A stretch of 64,000 nt of DNA from Thermotoga caldifontis AZM44c09. Its GTDB lineage: Bacteria > Thermotogota > Thermotogae > Thermotogales > DSM-5069. The stretch is from contig NZ_AP014509.1 in NCBI RefSeq assembly GCF_000828655.1, positions 992,001 through 1,056,000 of the forward strand, read 5' to 3'. Within the stretch, counting starts at the first letter, position 1; every line of letters begins with the position of its first letter. The notes below the pieces were generated by a model. It did no database searches, had not been told where the DNA came from, and saw only the letters and a list, made by a program, of their open reading frames with translations. The position numbers were made by a program, and so were the translations under genes. This document shows positions 3,845 to 54,830 of the stretch, piece after piece.

Positions 3845-5863
3845 TCAGAGAGTCCGCTTGACTTCCCTGAGCTGGTAGAATTCCAGTTCGTCTCCTTCCT
3901 GGAAGTCTGATCTATTCTTGAACTTTATACCACATTCCTGTGGTGCCTCAACTTGACTGACATCTTCCTTGAAGTGTTTGAGGCTCTCTATTTCGTCTGT
4001 GAACAGCAAAACACCGTTTCTGTACACCCGGACTTTGCTATCGCGCGTGACTTTTCCTTCGAGCATCTGAACGCCCGCAACCTTACCCACTTTCTTTATA
4101 TCGAAGACCTTCTTGATCTCACCTCGGCCAACGAGTTCCTCAACGATCTGCGGTTTCAACATGCCTTCCATCGCAAGTTTGAGGCTCTCGATCAGATCGT
4201 ATATGACTTCGTAGGTCTTCACCTGAACGCCTTCCGCCTCGGCCGCCTTCCTCGCCTGTGACTCTACTTTCACTCTGAATCCAAGGACGATACCATCACA
4301 GGTGGAAGCGAGCATGATGTCACTCTCAGTAACCGGACCCACGGCCGCGTGAACGACGCTCACCTTTATCTCATCTGACTTCAACGATTCAACAGCACTC
4401 TGAACTGCGCTCAAGGAACCTAAGGTGTCCGCCTTCAGAATCAAATTGAGCTCCTTTTTCTCCTTCTCTTCCATCATTTTCAAGAGTTCTTCCAGGGTCA
4501 TTCTCCTTCTGGTGCGTCTCTCTTTCTCGACACGCGCTTTGATCTCTTCGCTCACCTGGCGGGCTGTTTCAAGGTCTTCCACGCTGTAAATCGTGTAACG
4601 CAGATCTGGCAATTCCTCGAATCCAACGATCATCACTGGTTGGGAAGGTTCAGCACTCTTGATGTGCTTACCCTTGTCATCGATCAGGGCTCGGACCTTC
4701 GCGTATATGGGGCCTGAGATCACGTAGTCACCAATTTTCAGAATTCCGTCTTTTACGATCACGTTTGCAACTGGTCCCAGTCCACGCTCAACCTTCGATT
4801 CTATGACGACGCACCTTGCGGGTCCTTTTGGATAGCACTTTATTTCCTTCATTTCCGCTAAGAGCAGTATCATTTCCAGCAGCTCATCGATGCCCTGCCC
4901 GGTTCTCGCAGATATGGGGACGACGATCGTATCGCCACCCCAATCCTCTGGAACAAGGTTCAATTTTGATACGAGCTGTTGCTTCGTCGCTTCGACGTTT
5001 GCGTTTGGCTTGTCTATCTTGTTTATCGCCACTATGACGGGCACGTTCGCTGCCTTCGCGTGGTTGTAAGCCTCGATGGTTTGAGGCATGACACCGTCGT
5101 CCGCCGCGACCACGAGCACGACTATGTCCGTCGCCTGAGCACCCCTGGCCCTCATCTCTGTGAACAGTTCGTGACCAGGCGTGTCAATGAAGGTTATTTT
5201 CTTGCCGTTGTAACTGACCTGGTACGCGCCTATTGACTGGGTTATTCCTCCGGCTTCTTGCTCGGCTATGCGAGTTTTCCTTATTCTGTCCAGAAGCGTT
5301 GTCTTGCCGTGGTCCACGTGTCCCATGACCGTTACGACGGGCGGTCTCGGAACGAGTTCATTCGCGTGCTTGGTGTACAGCTCTTCGAAGTATTTCTCTA
5401 TCTGCTGGAGTTTGCTGATGGACATTTCTGCTTGCTCCGTTTTCTCCTCCCGCTGTATCTTCAGTTTATAACCGTACATCTTCGCGATTTCTCTTGCTGT
5501 TTTTTCGTCCAGTTTCTGGTTGGGTTTGAGCGCCACACCTTTCATGAACATGTCCTGAATCACTTTGTTCAAAGGCACGCCTATCTTCAACGCGAGAGTG
5601 TTCAGCTGGAGCTCTTCCTCCTTCAGGGCAACTTCTTCTCTGACCTCTTCCTCTATCTCCTCTTCCTTTTTCGCCTTCGCAACGGGTTTGGATTTTTCCA
5701 CATCTTCCTCTTCGAAAAGTTCGAGTAAGAGCTTGACCGTCTCTTCATCTATGTAACTCATGTGGTTCTTCACATCGAGTCCGAGCTCCTCGAGCTCCTG
5801 GAGGAGGTCCTTGGCAGACATATTCAGCTTCTTCGCGAGTTCATAGACTCTCAACCTCGGCAC
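3845..5863 (-). CDS. infB: Translation initiation factor IF-2
   Basis: GTPase that brings initiator fMet-tRNA to the 30S subunit. The order is a short N-terminal domain ([13 protein letters not shown]), a Glu/Lys-rich linker, the G domain with GHVDHGKT near residue 182 and NKID, then the C-terminal beta-barrel domains. The frame reaches GTG at 5872, but that codon overlaps the ribosome site GGGGTG; the GTG at 5863 is well spaced and gives the N-terminus MPRLRVYEL, so I use it (672 residues). TATATA/TATAAG sits just upstream, giving a short leader. Confidence 0.95.
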
Positions 5864-48499: not shown

Positions 48500-49240
48500 T
48501 TAACCTAAAAGAACATCAAGCATGGTCATGAGACTGAATCCAACCAGCAACCAGTACGTCGTGAGCCGTTCTTCACCTTTGAGATGCGTTTCTGGGATGA
48601 CCTCGTCGCTTATCACGAAGACCATGGCTCCAGCCGCGAGCGCGAGCAAATAGGGCAACAGGCTCCTCGCGAAGCTTATCAAGAGTACCCCAACGAGGCC
48701 TCCGAAAGCTTCGACCAAGCCTGTGAAAAGCGTGATGGAGAAGATGGACTTCTTTCTGTAGTTCGCACTCATGAGAGAGGCTGCCACGGCGGCACCTTCA
48801 GGGATGTTCTGAAGGCCTATCGCGATCGCGATCGTCAGCGCGTGAGGTGTGAACCCGCCGACACCGACGGCCATACCTTCGGGAAGGTTGTGGATGGTTA
48901 TCGCGATGATGAAAAGCCAGATCGTCTTCAAACGTTTCGCATCGAAGCCTTCATGTCCCTTGGTGAAGTGCTCGTGTGGCAGTATCTTATCCATCACGTC
49001 GACGAGTACTCCACCCAGAATGAAACCGATCACGAAGCGCACGATACCGCCGGACTCTATGGAGGGCACGACGAGACTGAAAGCACTCGCCGCGAGCATC
49101 ACACCCGCAGCGAAACCTAAGAACGCGTCGATCAACTTCTGAGAAGCGGTCTTGTTGAACAGCAAAAATGGTATCGCGCCGAGTGCGGTGCTGACCCCGG
49201 CGACGCTGCTGTAAATCAGTCCGCGCCAGAAACCCGTCAT
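48500..49240 (-). CDS. ZIP family metal transporter
   Basis: 246 residues, about eight helices. HNLPEGMAVGVG and QNIPEGAAVAAS carry the metal-site residues of helices IV and V; a His/Glu-containing loop (ILPHEHFTKGHEG) precedes them. Probably imports Zn or Fe. ATG 49240 overlaps the stop of the IscU-like gene, which ties a metal transporter to the Fe-S genes; iron is an attractive but unproven substrate. Confidence 0.87.
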   Translation of the reverse strand: MTGFWRGLIYSSVAGVSTALGAIPFLLFNKTASQKLIDAFLGFAAGVMLAASAFSLVVPSIESGGIVRFVIGFILGGVLVDVMDKILPHEHFTKGHEGFDAKRLKTIWLFIIAITIHNLPEGMAVGVGGFTPHALTIAIAIGLQNIPEGAAVAASLMSANYRKKSIFSITLFTGLVEAFGGLVGVLLISFARSLLPYLLALAAGAMVFVISDEVIPETHLKGEERLTTYWLLVGFSLMTMLDVLLG

Positions 49241-49587
49241 TCTACCTTCGTGATGGCCTTCTTGACGGCTTCGATGGGTGCGTTGATGCACGTGAAGTTC
49301 TTGTCGTGAAATTCCATCTCATCCCTGACGTGCTCTTCGTTGAGAAGCTTCACATCGTTTATGTGTTTTCCATCCACCAGTCTGCAAACTGCCTCGGAAG
49401 CGGCGATCACCCTCGGGCAACCCACGGCCTTGAAGGCGACGTCCTTCACGATGTAATTCTCGATCTTCAGAAATATGCGGACCCTGTCGCCGTGCTCGGG
49501 ATACACGACCTCGGCCGTGTGGGTGTACTCTATGTCCTTGCAGTATCTTGGGTACATGAAAAGTTGCTTGAACTTTTCGGAATACAT
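49237..49587 (-). CDS. IscU-like protein with a Cys-to-His change
   Basis: 116 residues of the NifU_N/IscU fold. The second and third scaffold positions keep cysteine (Cys57 in AVGCPRVIAASE, Cys100 in NFTCINAP), but the first reads EHGD (His32) where IscU has ACGD, and the His before the last Cys is missing. It could still bind a cluster with altered ligands or serve another role such as sulfur relay. It lies 12 bases after the second desulfurase, with the ZIP transporter overlapping its end. Confidence 0.78.
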   Translation of the reverse strand: MYSEKFKQLFMYPRYCKDIEYTHTAEVVYPEHGDRVRIFLKIENYIVKDVAFKAVGCPRVIAASEAVCRLVDGKHINDVKLLNEEHVRDEMEFHDKNFTCINAPIEAVKKAITKVE

Positions 49588-49599
49588 CGAATCCTCCCC

Positions 49600-50730
49600 T
49601 CAGGACATGCTTCGTAGCCTGCTGATCTCTCTCTGCAAGACCTCCAAGAAATAATCTATCTCATCTTCACTGTTATCGTAACCCAGGCTGATCCTGATCG
49701 CTCCATCGACGATCCAGTCCTCGAGTCCCATCGCCTCCAGCACGTGAGATCTGCCTTTACCATGGTGTGAAGCGCACGCAGAGGCCGTGGAGACAGATAT
49801 TCCACACATGTCCAGTGCGGTCGCGAGAGATTCTCCATGGATCCCTTTGAAGGACACGTTGATGTGCGAGAAAATCGTGTTGGAACCGTTTATGTGATGA
49901 TCTGGAATGGAATCGATCGCATCGATGATCTTCTCTTTGAGCCTTTTCATCTTTTCAGACCACGCTTCATAATTCTTCTCTATGAGCTCGAGTGCCACAG
50001 CCATGCCGTGCGCACCTGGCACGTTCTCTGTACCACTTCTCAAACCTCTTTCGTGCCCGCCACCGTACATGATGGGTTCGATCTTGATACTTCTGGACAC
50101 GTAGAGGAAACCACATCCTTTGGGCGCATAGAACTTGTGTCCGGACGCGGACAGCATGTCAACGAGTCTGGCATCGATCCTGATCTTCCCGATCGCCTGA
50201 ACCGCGTCGCTGTGGAGCACTATTCCATGTTCACGCGCTATCTTTGAGATTTCGTCGATGGGTTGAATGACGCCCGTTTCGTTGTTGACCCACATGATCG
50301 ATGCGAGGACCGTGTTCTTGCGTATCGCCTTTCGAAAATCGTCCGGCGTCACGTAGCCTTCCTCAGTTGGCTTCAGGTAGGTTACTTCGTAGCCTTCCTT
50401 CTCGAGCTGTTTAGCCACTTCGAGCACTGCGGGATGTTCGATCTGCGTGGTGATGATGTGTCCACCGTTCGGAAAGTTAGCCCTCAAAAACCCGCGTATC
50501 GCGATGTTGTCGGACTCAGTTCCACCCGAGGTGAAATAGATCTCGTCCGGCTCAACGTTCAGATGCTTCGCTATCTTTGTCCTCGCTTCTTCGTAGAATC
50601 TCCTGGCTTCGTACCCATGAGAGTGCGTGCTGGAGGCGTTTCCATAAAACTGTGTGAAGAGCTTCATCACTTCCTGGGCAACCTCGTCGAACACGCGCGT
50701 CGTCGCGGCGTGATCGAGATAGACCCTCAT
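49600..50730 (-). CDS. Cysteine desulfurase, canonical
   Basis: 376-residue PLP enzyme that takes sulfur from cysteine. DHAATT at the start, NNETG (149-153), HSDAVQA with the conserved Gln, the PLP lysine in SASGHKF (Lys199) and the persulfide-forming Cys319 in ASACASHHGKG are all intact. It lies between the two IscU-type genes (6 and 12-base gaps), giving an alternating desulfurase/scaffold layout. Confidence 0.93.
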   Translation of the reverse strand: MRVYLDHAATTRVFDEVAQEVMKLFTQFYGNASSTHSHGYEARRFYEEARTKIAKHLNVEPDEIYFTSGGTESDNIAIRGFLRANFPNGGHIITTQIEHPAVLEVAKQLEKEGYEVTYLKPTEEGYVTPDDFRKAIRKNTVLASIMWVNNETGVIQPIDEISKIAREHGIVLHSDAVQAIGKIRIDARLVDMLSASGHKFYAPKGCGFLYVSRSIKIEPIMYGGGHERGLRSGTENVPGAHGMAVALELIEKNYEAWSEKMKRLKEKIIDAIDSIPDHHINGSNTIFSHINVSFKGIHGESLATALDMCGISVSTASACASHHGKGRSHVLEAMGLEDWIVDGAIRISLGYDNSEDEIDYFLEVLQREISRLRSMS

Positions 50731-50736
50731 GACTGC

Positions 50737-51117
50737 TCACTTCCTGACAAACGATTCTTCGTACGCGCTGATGGCCTTCCTGAGCGTGTCTATCGCTAAA
50801 TTGCTGCAGTGATACTTCACAGGTGGCAATCCTCCGAGCCTCTCAACGATGTCTTTCCACGTGATCTTCTTGGCTTCCTCTAAGGTGAGGCCCTTAACAA
50901 CTTCCGTCATCATGGACGCGGTGGCGATGTTAGCGGCACAGCCGTAAGATTCGAACTTTATGTCTACGATCCTGTTGTCCTCTATCTTCAGATACACTGT
51001 CATCATGTCTCCACAGGCGACACTACCTTCCGTGGCTTCAGCGTCTGGATTTTCTATGCGTCCAAGGTTCCTCGGATTTTTAAAATGATCCAGAACGAGT
51101 TCTGTGTATTTCAGCAT
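50737..51117 (-). CDS. IscU/NifU-type Fe-S scaffold
   Basis: 126 residues with all three scaffold cysteines: Cys35 in VACGDMM, Cys60 in SYGCAANIATAS and Cys104 in KYHCSNLA, plus the conserved Asp37. Fe-S clusters are built here from desulfurase sulfur. It sits 6 bases after the atypical desulfurase and 6 before the canonical one. Confidence 0.93.
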   Translation of the reverse strand: MLKYTELVLDHFKNPRNLGRIENPDAEATEGSVACGDMMTVYLKIEDNRIVDIKFESYGCAANIATASMMTEVVKGLTLEEAKKITWKDIVERLGGLPPVKYHCSNLAIDTLRKAISAYEESFVRK

Positions 51118-51123
51118 GCCTCA

Positions 51124-52296
51124 TCACCTCCCGGCTTTGAGAGGGCTGATGCTCCTCAACCACTGGACGACCTTCTTCAACTTCTCGATCGCGTAGTCGA
51201 GTTCCTCTTTGCTCGTGAACCTGCTGAAGGTGAAGCGGATCGAACCGTGAGCACGCTCGTGATCGCCACCTATGGCCAGGATCGCGTAGTTGGGCTCGAG
51301 CGATTCCGAAGCGCAGGCCGAGCCGGTGGCAACTTCCACGCCTTCAAGGCTCAGTCCCAGGCTGATCGCCTCGCCCTCGATGAAGGAGAAGCTGAAGTTC
51401 ACGTTGTACGGCGTTCTCTTCTCTCCCCTTGGTCCGTTCAGGATCACGTGATCGATCTCGTTTTCAACCCTTTCGATGAAATATTCCTGAAGCTCTCTCA
51501 GTTTCCTGTACGATTCTTCCATCTGCTCGAACGCGAGTTCCGCCGCTTTCTTCATGCCCATGATCGCGGGCACGTTCTCTCCACCGGGCCTGCGTTTGTC
51601 GAAGGATTCCGCACCGTACATGATCGGTTCTATCTTCACACCCTTTCGAACGTACAGAAAGCCGACACCCTTGGGACCGTGAAACTTGTGGCCACTGACG
51701 CTCATCAGGTCCAGCTTCAACTTTTGAACATCGATCGGCATCTTGGCGTACATCTCCGCGGCGTCGGTGTGGAAGTAGATCCTGTGGTCCTGCTTAGAAA
51801 GGATCTCTCCGATTTCTTCCAGCGGCATGATGGATCCCACGAAGTGTCCGACCGCTATGACGCTCACCAGTATCGTGGTTGGTCTTATCGCTTTTTCAAA
51901 CTCGTCGAGCTTCAGGATTCCTTCGCTGTCCACCGGTACTATCGTCACTTCGAAACCTTCTTTTTTCAAAGCCTCCGCGATGCTCATCACAGAGCCGTGT
52001 TCGAGCGCAGATATGATGATGTGATTGCCCTTCTTTCTGCTCGCCCGTGCAACACCGAGCAAGGCGAGGTTGTTGGCTTCGGTGGCACCGGAGGTGAAGA
52101 CGATCTCTTCACCCGACGACGCGTTGATAGTTTTCGCAAAGAATTCTCTCGCCTCGGTGAGTTCGTCGTAGATCTCCTGCGCAGATTCGTACAGACCGTC
52201 CGGCCTGGCGAACTTCTCGAGCATGTATTCGTTGATCTTTTGGACCACTTCCGGCAGAACCTTCGTGGTTCTGCAGTTATCGAGAAAAACTTTCAT
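51124..52296 (-). CDS. Cysteine desulfurase-like protein with altered active-site motifs
   Basis: 390 residues of the NifS/IscS fold. The PLP lysine (SGHKFHGPKG, Lys204) and active cysteine (GSACAS, Cys328) remain. The usual DHAATT reads DNCRTT (6-11), the NNETG stretch reads GHFVG (150-154), and the Gln of DAVQA is Glu (DAAEM). The altered Asn and Gln normally contact the PLP ring, so activity or substrate may differ. It starts 14 bases after the phosphorylase gene and is first of the desulfurase/scaffold block. Confidence 0.85.
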   Translation of the reverse strand: MKVFLDNCRTTKVLPEVVQKINEYMLEKFARPDGLYESAQEIYDELTEAREFFAKTINASSGEEIVFTSGATEANNLALLGVARASRKKGNHIIISALEHGSVMSIAEALKKEGFEVTIVPVDSEGILKLDEFEKAIRPTTILVSVIAVGHFVGSIMPLEEIGEILSKQDHRIYFHTDAAEMYAKMPIDVQKLKLDLMSVSGHKFHGPKGVGFLYVRKGVKIEPIMYGAESFDKRRPGGENVPAIMGMKKAAELAFEQMEESYRKLRELQEYFIERVENEIDHVILNGPRGEKRTPYNVNFSFSFIEGEAISLGLSLEGVEVATGSACASESLEPNYAILAIGGDHERAHGSIRFTFSRFTSKEELDYAIEKLKKVVQWLRSISPLKAGR

Positions 52297-52310: not shown

Positions 52311-53129
52311 TCAGAGCCTTTTGACCACCCCGAGGATGATCCGCGCGATCTTCTTACCGGTTTCTTCCGCAACCCTGAGCACCTCTTCAGCTGTGAGAGG
52401 TTTCAGATCCTCGGGCACCGCACGATCCGTGATCGCGGAGATGCCGAGTACCTTCATACCTGCGTGTTTGGCGACGATGACTTCAGGCACCGTAGACATA
52501 CCGACTGCGTCCGCGCCGAGCCTTCTGAACATGCGCAGTTCGGCTGCCGTTTCGAAATTCGGTCCGGCCACGGCCACGTAGACACCCTCGTAGACTTCTA
52601 TCTTCTCTTCCTCGGCCACTTCCTTGGCCAGGGCTATGAGTTTTCTATCGTAAGGCTCACTCATGTCGGGGAACCTCGGTCCCCACTCGTCCACGTTCTT
52701 TCCTCTGAGCGGGTTGTCACCCATGAAGTTTATGTGATCGACTATGATCATCGGCCTGCCAACTTCGAAGAGGGGGTTCAATCCTCCCGCCGCGTTCGTC
52801 AAAAAGAGGTACTTCACTCCGAGAAGCTGCATCACGCGGATCGGGAACGTCACGTCCTGCATCGAGTGTCCCTCGTAGTAATGGAACCTTCCGTTCATCA
52901 GGACGGCATCCTTTCCTGAAAGTTTTCCAAAGATGAGCTCACCCTTGTGCCCCGGTGCCGTGGCGACGGGAAAACCAGGAATGTCTGCGTATTTGATAAC
53001 CTGAGGGGATTCGATGACTTCTGCTATCTTCCCGAGCCCCGAGCCGAGCACGATACCGATCGTTGGTGAAACGGAAATCCTTTCCTTGAGAAACTCCACG
53101 GCTTTCTTTACCCTTTCCACGTAATCCAT
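52311..53129 (-). CDS. Purine nucleoside phosphorylase
   Basis: 272 residues, trimeric PNP type: GIVLGSGLG phosphate loop, NGRFHYYEG, TNAAGGLN, and VAGPNFETAAELRM with the purine-site Glu. Cleaves (deoxy)inosine/guanosine with phosphate. It lies 14 bases from both neighbours, inside the Fe-S operon, which has no obvious metabolic reason. Confidence 0.93.
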   Translation of the reverse strand: MDYVERVKKAVEFLKERISVSPTIGIVLGSGLGKIAEVIESPQVIKYADIPGFPVATAPGHKGELIFGKLSGKDAVLMNGRFHYYEGHSMQDVTFPIRVMQLLGVKYLFLTNAAGGLNPLFEVGRPMIIVDHINFMGDNPLRGKNVDEWGPRFPDMSEPYDRKLIALAKEVAEEEKIEVYEGVYVAVAGPNFETAAELRMFRRLGADAVGMSTVPEVIVAKHAGMKVLGISAITDRAVPEDLKPLTAEEVLRVAEETGKKIARIILGVVKRL

Positions 53130-53143
53130 CCTCTACACCCCCA

Positions 53144-54103
53144 TCAATCCAGAAGTCCTTTTATGATGAGCTCCGTTGCCTCATCCTCACTCAGACCTTT
53201 GCTCATGAGTGTCTCGAGCTGCTTCGCGTTCACCCTGCCTATGGAAGCTTCGTGCGTGAGCTCCGCTCTGTCACTGAAGACTTTCAGTATCGGTACGGTG
53301 CTCACTTCCACGCCAGAGCCCTTGGTGATCTCCTCACACCGTACGTGCCCCTTGGAATAGTCTCCCCTACCGTAAGCTTCGTTCACCACGCGCGCCCTCG
53401 CCCTGTCCAGGGCAACGACAGTCGTGCTCACCATGCCGCGAGATTCGACGCCGACGAGATCGATCTTTTCGTGGATGTCCACCACATCGTCGCCACTCGC
53501 ACGCACGCGTGCCGACACGTCTGCAACGGCTCGATCCTTGAGTTCCACGGAAAAGTCCAGTCTCATTTTTCCAACGCGTGTTCTCGTGAGCGCGAACCTG
53601 TTGACGTAAAGCCCGTTCTGTTCGACAATTACCCTCGAAACTGTGATCAGGTTAACTGTGCCCGCATCCGAATGGTAATGTTCATCCGAATACGACATCT
53701 TCGCGTTCTTCCCGACCGTTACGTTCATGAGTGCATCGTGTGTGAACTCCTCAGTCCATGGAAAGACGCAGTGGGCCACGAAGTGCGCCTCGGCGTCGTC
53801 CTGGACCGTGATGTCGAAGATCACCCTCTGGTATCCTTTGCGTTCCAGATAACCCGTGCACACGTGGATCGGGAACGCCAGCTTTGTCCCTCTCTTTATG
53901 ATCATCTTCGCGTGCACACCGTTCTCGATGGTTTTCGGCACGAGTTCCACTCCTGGAACGTTGTTCAGTCCCACCACTCTGTCACCGCTTATGATTATCG
54001 AGGCGATCCTTTTGTCCAGAAACTTCGAAACATCACCGCCGACCTTCTCGTACGCCTTGACGAGCGCTTCGAACTCGGTCCTTCTATCGATATCGACTTG
54101 CAT
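53144..54103 (-). CDS. sufB: SufB/SufD-type Fe-S assembly protein, single copy
   Basis: 319 residues, shorter than E. coli SufB or SufD. The beta-helix core ends with GHVRCEEITKG (Cys256) and ELTHEASIGR (His284, Glu285). Cys256 and Glu285 have the same 29-residue spacing as Cys405 and Glu434 of E. coli SufB (recalled), so this one protein keeps the sulfur-accepting and cluster-binding residues. With SufC 4 bases upstream and no second SufB/D gene, it fits the minimal SufBC-type (SMS) system found in archaea and deep-branching bacteria. Confidence 0.9.
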   Translation of the reverse strand: MQVDIDRRTEFEALVKAYEKVGGDVSKFLDKRIASIIISGDRVVGLNNVPGVELVPKTIENGVHAKMIIKRGTKLAFPIHVCTGYLERKGYQRVIFDITVQDDAEAHFVAHCVFPWTEEFTHDALMNVTVGKNAKMSYSDEHYHSDAGTVNLITVSRVIVEQNGLYVNRFALTRTRVGKMRLDFSVELKDRAVADVSARVRASGDDVVDIHEKIDLVGVESRGMVSTTVVALDRARARVVNEAYGRGDYSKGHVRCEEITKGSGVEVSTVPILKVFSDRAELTHEASIGRVNAKQLETLMSKGLSEDEATELIIKGLLD

Positions 54104-54107
54104 ACCA

Positions 54108-54830
54108 TCACTTCCTCACAGGTATGTTGGTGTGGTCGCACACGTCACAGAAATTCTTGTAGTATTTTGCGACCTTCTCAGGCGAGCCACTGTAAATGAT
54201 CTTTCCGTCACACAGAACGTGTGCGATATTCGCTACAGACATCATCTCTTCACGGTGCGTGATCATTATCAGAGAACCACCCTGCTCGACGATCCTCCGG
54301 GCTACGTTTTTTATCATGTCCAGTGAGAGCACGTCTATGCCAGAATCTGGCTCGTCCAGGATGGCGTACCTTGGCCTGAGCAAGAGTATCGAAGCCAGTT
54401 CGACGCGCTTCCTCTCTCCACCGCTCAGCAGTTCGTCGACCATCCTGTTCAGATAGAGATTCGCAGACAGACCCACAAGATGCAAAACCTCTTCGAGCTC
54501 GGCCTGTGTGAGCTTCAACTTTCCACCCAGGGTGAGGTACTGTCTCACCGTCAGGCCACGGAACCTGACCGGTTCCTGCCACATCAAATGTATTCCCAGC
54601 TTCGCCCTTTCCGTCACACCGAGATCGGTGATGTCTCTATCGTCGAGGAGGACCTTTCCCTCCGTCGGTCTGTAGCCCTCCAGGCCCATGATCAGGTACG
54701 CGAGGGAAGACTTGCCGGCCCCGTTGGGTCCCAGAATGATGTGGATTTCTCGATCGTTGAAGGTCAGGTCGATGTTTTTGAGGATGAGCTTCGAATCCCT
54801 TGCCAGACTCACGTTCTGTAGTCGGAGCAT
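54108..54830 (-). CDS. sufC: SufC ATPase
   Basis: 240-residue ABC-type ATPase of the Suf complex, soluble. GPNGAGKSSLAYLIMG, the Q-loop WQEPVRF, LSGGERKRVELASILL and LDEPDSGIDV are all present. First gene of the minus-strand run; the 74-base gap before it holds two small palindromes. Confidence 0.95.
   Translation of the reverse strand: MLRLQNVSLARDSKLILKNIDLTFNDREIHIILGPNGAGKSSLAYLIMGLEGYRPTEGKVLLDDRDITDLGVTERAKLGIHLMWQEPVRFRGLTVRQYLTLGGKLKLTQAELEEVLHLVGLSANLYLNRMVDELLSGGERKRVELASILLLRPRYAILDEPDSGIDVLSLDMIKNVARRIVEQGGSLIMITHREEMMSVANIAHVLCDGKIIYSGSPEKVAKYYKNFCDVCDHTNIPVRK

Follow-up and report, generated by a model that had tools for sequence, protein, structure and literature searches.

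The nearest precedent for the protein analysed here is the IscS of Archaeoglobus fulgidus (IscS2; PDB 4eb5, 4eb7, 4hvk, 4r5f), which is described as devoid of desulfurase activity, as supplying a Cys that ligates the IscU-bound [2Fe-2S] cluster, and as having Asp in place of the PLP Lys (PMC7585200); the title of entry 4r5f names D199K. For Methanosarcina acetivorans, an IscS1 lacking PLP-site residues and an IscU3 with a Cys-to-His exchange have been reported (PMC7585200; PMC12442378).

The roles of individual residues (E. coli IscS numbering) have been described in several enzymes of this type. The DndA equivalents of T76, H104, D180, S203, H205 and K206 are listed as strictly conserved anchors of PLP, and binding of the cysteine carboxylate is presumed for the counterparts of N155, Q183 and R354 (PMC3343029). 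In the Thermococcus enzyme ToCDS, Asn and Arg are reported to hold the carboxylate of alanine (PMC5426080). Gln183 of E. coli IscS is described as bonding the PLP phenolate oxygen; according to the same account, the Q183E variant no longer produces sulfide but still accumulates ketimine and quinonoid forms, and R354K retains full activity (PMC9978102). The crystal structure of the E. coli IscS-IscU complex is reported to show IscU in contact with Glu309-Ala316, Glu347 and the C-terminal helix 379-391 of IscS; loss of the C-terminal end of IscS is said there to abolish IscU binding, and IscU K103E to disrupt the complex (PMC2854127).

The window, i.e. the whole analysed stretch of 64,000 nucleotides of the genome of the thermophile Thermotoga caldifontis AZM44c09, encodes an IscS-lineage protein of 390 aa, here called S2, on the minus strand at positions 51124..52296 (ATG start). 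S2 matches Pfam PF00266 (aminotransferase class V) with 253.8 bits, and its best equivalog model, TIGR03402, scores 409.5 bits against a cut-off of 530.75, a threshold that its canonical neighbour S1 (434.0) does not reach either. An earlier note on this DNA had read Lys204 and Cys328 as retained, NNETG as GHFVG, the Gln of DAVQA as Glu, and DHAATT as DNCRTT. All of this was confirmed in the ORF, in which DNCRTT occupies positions 6-11, GHFVG 150-154 and TDAAE 177-181, and in a MAFFT alignment with E. coli IscS, which pairs A11 with R9, N155 with H151, Q183 with E181, K206 with K204, and C328 with C328. An alignment shift as the source of the motif changes was excluded, as three alignments agree and none restores the motifs.

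The note further held that the changed positions normally hold or contact PLP, which is correct only in part. The substrate-carboxylate/O3' side (Asn155, Gln183) is changed, together with Thr243 and the N-terminal Ala11, but the six PLP-anchoring residues, T72, H100, D178, S201, H203 and K204 in the numbering of S2, are all kept. S2 may thus be summarized as a protein with the PLP anchors, Arg354 and Cys328 in place and a replaced substrate side (R9, H151, E181, G239). Several changes had escaped the note, namely Thr243 to Gly239, G233/E236 to A229/F232, N35 to R31, and, in the Cys loop, S323A and S336N; D79 to N75 and E156 to F152 are further replacements. The Cys328 loop has the same length as in E. 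coli IscS (type I loop).

The same changes were followed through an S2 set of 16 proteins from four Thermotogota families, with identity from 97% to about 34%, and through 51 canonical proteins, i.e. 16 S1 and 35 other Lys-bearing relatives (the latter were picked for Lys, therefore their Lys count is uninformative). A11, N155, Q183 and T243 are replaced in 16/16 S2. N155, Q183 and T243 are present in 51/51 comparison proteins, and not one of the 16 S2 has any of them; the A11 column contains Ala in 48 and Ser in 2 of the 50 comparison rows with a letter. As the substitutions are fixed in 16/16 orthologues, with the canonical state in 51/51 comparison rows, they are not due to chance. Arg9 and His151 are likewise fixed in 16/16, T243 is replaced by Gly (12) or Ala (4), and Q183 by Glu (13), Met, Thr or Val (1 each). 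T76, H104, D180, S203, H205, K206, C328 and R354 are kept in every S2. Among the 53 columns conserved in at least 95% of the 51 comparison rows, S2 fully keeps 27 and wholly replaces 12, and the chance of all eight kept residues falling among the 27 kept columns, calculated post hoc, is 0.0025. The Lys-less IscS group has lost K206, H205 and R354 in 10/10 rows. One KSB1 Lys-less IscS (L064:7998-9155) also has His at Asn155, hence N155H has apparently evolved on more than one occasion.

Since the PLP contacts are kept, S2 is expected to retain binding of PLP and, probably, of an amino acid, although two of the three carboxylate contacts are changed; His151 and Arg9 could replace the lost substrate contacts. 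The strict retention of K206, H104 and R354, three residues of which the Lys-less group has lost K206 and R354 together with H205, is the main argument against a purely passive docking role. The strict Lys, His104 and R354 also keep alive two rival readings, in which S2 is an enzyme of altered specificity or one of gated activity.

S2 is no decaying gene. It is intact in 16 genomes and is under strong purifying selection: dN/dS equals 0.037-0.048 in the three pairs with a finite S2 dS (0.056-0.099 for S1), which excludes a pseudogene, and in 10/10 comparisons with the T. caldifontis genome the dN of S2 is lower than that of S1.

Such selection would also suit a working PLP enzyme with a changed substrate or reaction specificity, whose Cys328 would pass sulfur to the neighbouring IscU protein, U1. 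Arg9, His151 and Glu181 would then accept another substrate, e.g. a cysteine derivative with a second acidic group. The invariance of the catalytic PLP residues, Arg354 and Cys328, the coordinated replacement of 12 near-invariant columns and the fixation of Arg9 and His151 agree with this proposal. However, position 181 is not fixed, and the f4/f7 members lack R236 of the Thr243 loop, so that no fixed new pocket is seen in S2 beyond R9/H151. Moreover, no genes of a new pathway were recognised in the cassette described below. The selenium version, raised in the earlier note with selenocysteine as a candidate substrate, is weakened by the genome, which holds no match to selD (TIGR00476) over the curated cut-off, and a selenocysteine lyase is therefore unlikely. 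Altogether, we regard a changed specificity as rather unlikely.

The other of these rivals is an ordinary cysteine desulfurase in which the changes compensate one another, active perhaps only with U1 or S1 bound. The core for PLP and cysteine chemistry is complete in S2, and the predicted fold is that of known enzymes. An AF2 model (16 rows; pLDDT 80.4, pTM 0.84) matches NFS1 with Z 45.8, E. coli IscS with 44.6 and A. fulgidus IscS with 43.9 (the range against E. coli IscS and human NFS1 structures is 44.4-45.8), but its confidence is low at residues 1-10, 226-239 and 324-350, therefore it says nothing on the geometry of the pocket. Gating as such has a parallel in human NFS1, described as active only within its complex (PMC9978102). 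On the other hand, none of the 51 Lys-bearing comparison proteins has N155, Q183 or T243 changed, and the Q183E exchange, which is the change at E181, is by itself sufficient to kill the reported activity of E. coli IscS (PMC9978102). The latter supports a loss of activity in S2, and we consider a gated ordinary desulfurase unlikely.

The genes around S2 form a minus-strand run with gaps of 4-14 bases. It consists of genes for an SmsC/SufC-type ATPase (54108..54830), an SmsB/SufB-D-type scaffold (53144..54103), a purine nucleoside phosphorylase-family protein (52311..53129), S2, U1 (50737..51117), S1 (49600..50730) and U2 (49237..49587). At its end lies a gene for a ZIP-family metal transporter (48500..49291). 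The start listed for this ORF falls within U2, and the actual start may be situated further inside. U1 is an IscU with the ligands Cys37, Asp39, Cys63, His105 and Cys106, and Lys103. S1, a type I cysteine desulfurase, has a canonical active site and lacks E309, E347 and the C-terminal helix. U2 is an altered IscU, in which Asp39, Cys63 and Cys106 are kept, Cys37 is changed to His, and His105 and Lys103 are lost. The canonical paralogue which the earlier note had placed beside S2 is thus indeed canonical, but it is separated from S2 by the intact IscU gene. A scan for promoters and terminators gave no clear excess over shuffled sequences (6 vs 4.3 and 7 vs 7.2, respectively). The phosphorylase-family gene precedes S2 in 11/11 genomes of family f1, even where SmsCB are not nearby (L045).

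The host genome (2.01 Mb, single contig) has nine matches to the aminotransferase class V family (Pfam), among which S1 and S2 are the only recognisable cysteine desulfurases. The third-best PF00266 match (L003) was rejected as a desulfurase, since its sequence, judged by eye, is that of an alanine/serine-glyoxylate-type aminotransferase. The only two NifU_N proteins (Pfam) are U1 and U2. As these four are the sole recognised desulfurase and IscU genes of the genome, the MIS-type supply rests on the cassette. No Hsc genes occur within the gene run, which thus presents an IscS-like and IscU-like pair without the Isc chaperones, as in MIS.

Wherever S2 is present (16 genomes), U1 comes directly after it. 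In G045 and throughout family f1 the S1-U2 pair stands after S2-U1, although G005 has it on another contig; in G047 the two pairs are located on different contigs, from which it follows that S2-U1 and S1-U2 are modules. Contigs end after or inside S1 in G057 and G051, and in front of U1 in G048. G054 has S2-U1 without S1 nearby and U2 on another contig; S1 was not found in this assembly, which is 71% complete. U2 (at least 147 bits) was detected in 15 of the 103 Thermotogota genomes, 14 of them shared with the 16 that carry S2, and all three mismatches (G048, G051, G057) fall at contig ends. The two pairs are therefore co-inherited, although these genomes belong to related lineages and the co-occurrence counts are not independent. 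We found no description of an S2-U1-S1-U2 cassette in the literature searched, which includes only a minority of subscription journals.

The cassette also shows some variation. In the f4/f7 genomes U1 has a C-terminal extension; that of L135:3003-3638 matches FeS_assembly_P (PF01883, 42.6 bits), and in L051, L052, L055 and L134 it was observed as longer ORFs. In both f7 genomes U1 is adjoined by a short protein which, by eye, we take to be of the Rrf2/IscR type (L134:3414-3830 and L055:3146-3541, both on the minus strand), and in L134 a pair of genes, presumably nucleotidyltransferase-like and HEPN-like, is inserted before S1.

The four proteins are altered in a crosswise manner. Cys37, Asp39, Cys63, Lys103, His105 and Cys106 are kept in 17/17 U1. 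In U2, Asp39, Cys63 and Cys106 are kept in 14/14, but Cys37 is replaced by His (11) or Asp (3), His105 is absent from all 14, and Lys103 is found in only 3. With U1 intact and U2 altered, S2 altered and S1 intact, either pair combines an intact protein with an altered one, so that IscS and IscU proteins occur here in a new and conserved set.

The residues used for IscU docking follow the same division. E309 is present in 16/16 S2 and 0/16 S1, E347 in 15/16 and 1/16, and S384 in 16/16 and 5/16, respectively; S1 mostly ends before the last helix. In S2, the region around Cys328 (320-356 in E. coli numbering) has 23 invariant sites out of 37, compared with 54 of 339 elsewhere in the protein (Fisher 5e-9, the sites not being independent), whereas in S1 it does not stand out from the remainder (10/37 vs 93/333). 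The Cys328 loop is the most conserved region of S2, and not of S1. S2 is thus most constrained where U1 would meet it, and S1 over the catalytic body. This contrast in docking may, however, only reflect that S1 is a NifS-type enzyme which docks in another way.

These data also bear on the proposal that S2 pairs obligatorily with S1 in a heterodimer, shapes or regulates the S1 site in trans and has no separate role with U1. The loop carrying Thr243 reaches across the dimer, and its positions Gly233, Glu236 and Thr243 are all replaced in S2; furthermore, S1 and S2 co-occur across genomes, mostly within one cassette. Nevertheless, in G047 the partner of S2 on its contig is U1 and not S1, and the docking residues as well as the highly conserved Cys loop are kept, which makes a regulator without a role on U1 very unlikely.

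S2 (at least 600 bits) was found in 16 of the 103 Thermotogota genomes, belonging to families f1 (11/11 genomes), f4, f6 and f7; the highest score below these, 441 bits, belongs to a canonical protein (G068). All 16 S2 form one clade with SH-aLRT 98 (all columns), and the S1 of those genomes group with SH-aLRT 99. Against all rows and with the 18 trait columns excluded, the S2 branch retains a support of 87/60, and a single origin of S2 is likely from these alignments. S2 falls into one half of the tree with clostridial-type IscS, and S1 into the other with Thermotoga NifS-like proteins, which excludes S2 as a recent tandem duplicate of S1. One genome (G006) carries two more homologues, one split into overlapping frames (L057:4606-5442 and 5285-5839) and one canonical (L056:5211-6362).

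Outside Thermotogota, the depth scans covered two phyla with a profile that favours S2's own members. No S2-like protein above 459 bits was found in 398 genomes from the phylum of the Eubacterium record, in which all six matches are canonical, nor at E <= 1e-130 in 50 genomes from the phylum of the Atribacteria record. The closest named relative in a contig scan with exact 8-mers of S2, which does not reach even the f4 members, is a Pseudothermotoga MAG with 87% identity to S2.

Based on these observations, we tentatively favour, at somewhat less than even chances, the view that S2 is a PLP-binding protein, inefficient alone, which acts as the docking and Cys-loop partner of U1, with S1 as the sulfur source. 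S2 would descend from an IscS formerly located in front of IscU; it would still bind PLP but would have ceased to work efficiently as a cysteine desulfurase on its own, with little or no sulfide released. It would dock the intact scaffold U1 as its dedicated partner, with the loop Cys328 carrying persulfide or ligating the cluster as it forms. S1, as the one canonical desulfurase of the cell, would supply the sulfur, either as sulfide or as persulfide relayed to Cys328 of S2, perhaps inside an S1-S2 heterodimer. As to the dependence of S2 on its paralogue, suggested in the earlier note, the genomic context favours it, and the interpretation given in the note is partly supported overall.

A further-reaching version of the preferred view, which we hold to be somewhat unlikely, treats S1 and S2 as one IscS split in two, with U1 and U2 divided in parallel. 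S1 would perform the PLP chemistry and have no dock, and S2 would provide the dock and the Cys loop, holding PLP mainly as a structural part; U1 would build the cluster, and U2 would be a modified scaffold that perhaps carries sulfur or iron. All four proteins would thus work as one machine, possibly through an S1-S2 heterodimer relaying persulfide to U1. The presence of S2, with its PLP anchor and Cys328 kept and its substrate pocket rebuilt, beside the ordinary S1 suggests that the building of Fe-S clusters is divided here between two proteins where one usually suffices. S1 and S2 offer a natural experiment to tell the parts of IscS required for PLP chemistry from those required for assembling clusters on IscU. 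If the split holds, sulfur release, docking and handover, which are fused in IscS, become separately assayable, and the archaeal non-desulfurase IscS is no longer an isolated oddity.

IscS-like proteins without the PLP Lys were also encountered elsewhere. Among 50 loci from the 8-mer contig scan (L062-L111), 41 lack it, 8 have it, and in one the site is not covered. The substitutes are mostly Asp, but also Asn, Gln, Pro, Ser and Glu, and the hosts include Lokiarchaeota, Thorarchaeota, Sifarchaeum, ANME-2, Desulfobacterales, Chloroflexi and KSB1. IscU was present in the flank examined for 37 of the 41 Lys-less loci, and the lokiarchaeal one is closest to A. fulgidus IscS2 (467 bits). Judging from these sequences, IscS proteins without desulfurase function may be much more widespread than the two published archaeal cases.

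Compared with A. fulgidus IscS, S2 likewise belongs to the IscS lineage, has an altered PLP site, keeps the loop Cys and is encoded directly before iscU. Unlike it, S2 keeps the Lys (16/16), His205 and Arg354 and changes Ala11 to Arg and Asn155 to His; the archaeal Lys-less rows related to A. fulgidus IscS stand apart from S2 in the tree. As the Lys is lost in that group and kept in S2, S2 is not a member of it. The cassette resembles MIS (MisS and MisU) and IscS1/IscU3 of M. acetivorans in being composed of minimal IscS-IscU pairs. However, the altered IscS of M. acetivorans has lost the Lys, unlike S2, and the published accounts cited above, as far as they treat these proteins, do not describe one four-gene cassette.

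With E. coli IscS and human NFS1, S2 shares the fold, the PLP anchors, Lys, Arg354, the Cys328 loop, E309 and E347; it differs from both in Asn155, Gln183, Thr243, Ala11 and eight further near-invariant columns, all replaced in S2. The nearest intact relatives by score among the searched phyla are clostridial-type IscS proteins (L143-L148, 455-459 bits to the S2 profile), which share the C-terminal pattern of S2 around E. coli 345-356, but have fully canonical active sites (6/6). Finally, the Thermotoga maritima NifS-like protein (PDB 1ecx/1eg5) has the same type I desulfurase fold (Z 42.1, 35% identity), whereas the rows taken as its relatives (f2 genomes) differ from S2 in having a canonical pocket and lie in the S1 half of the tree.
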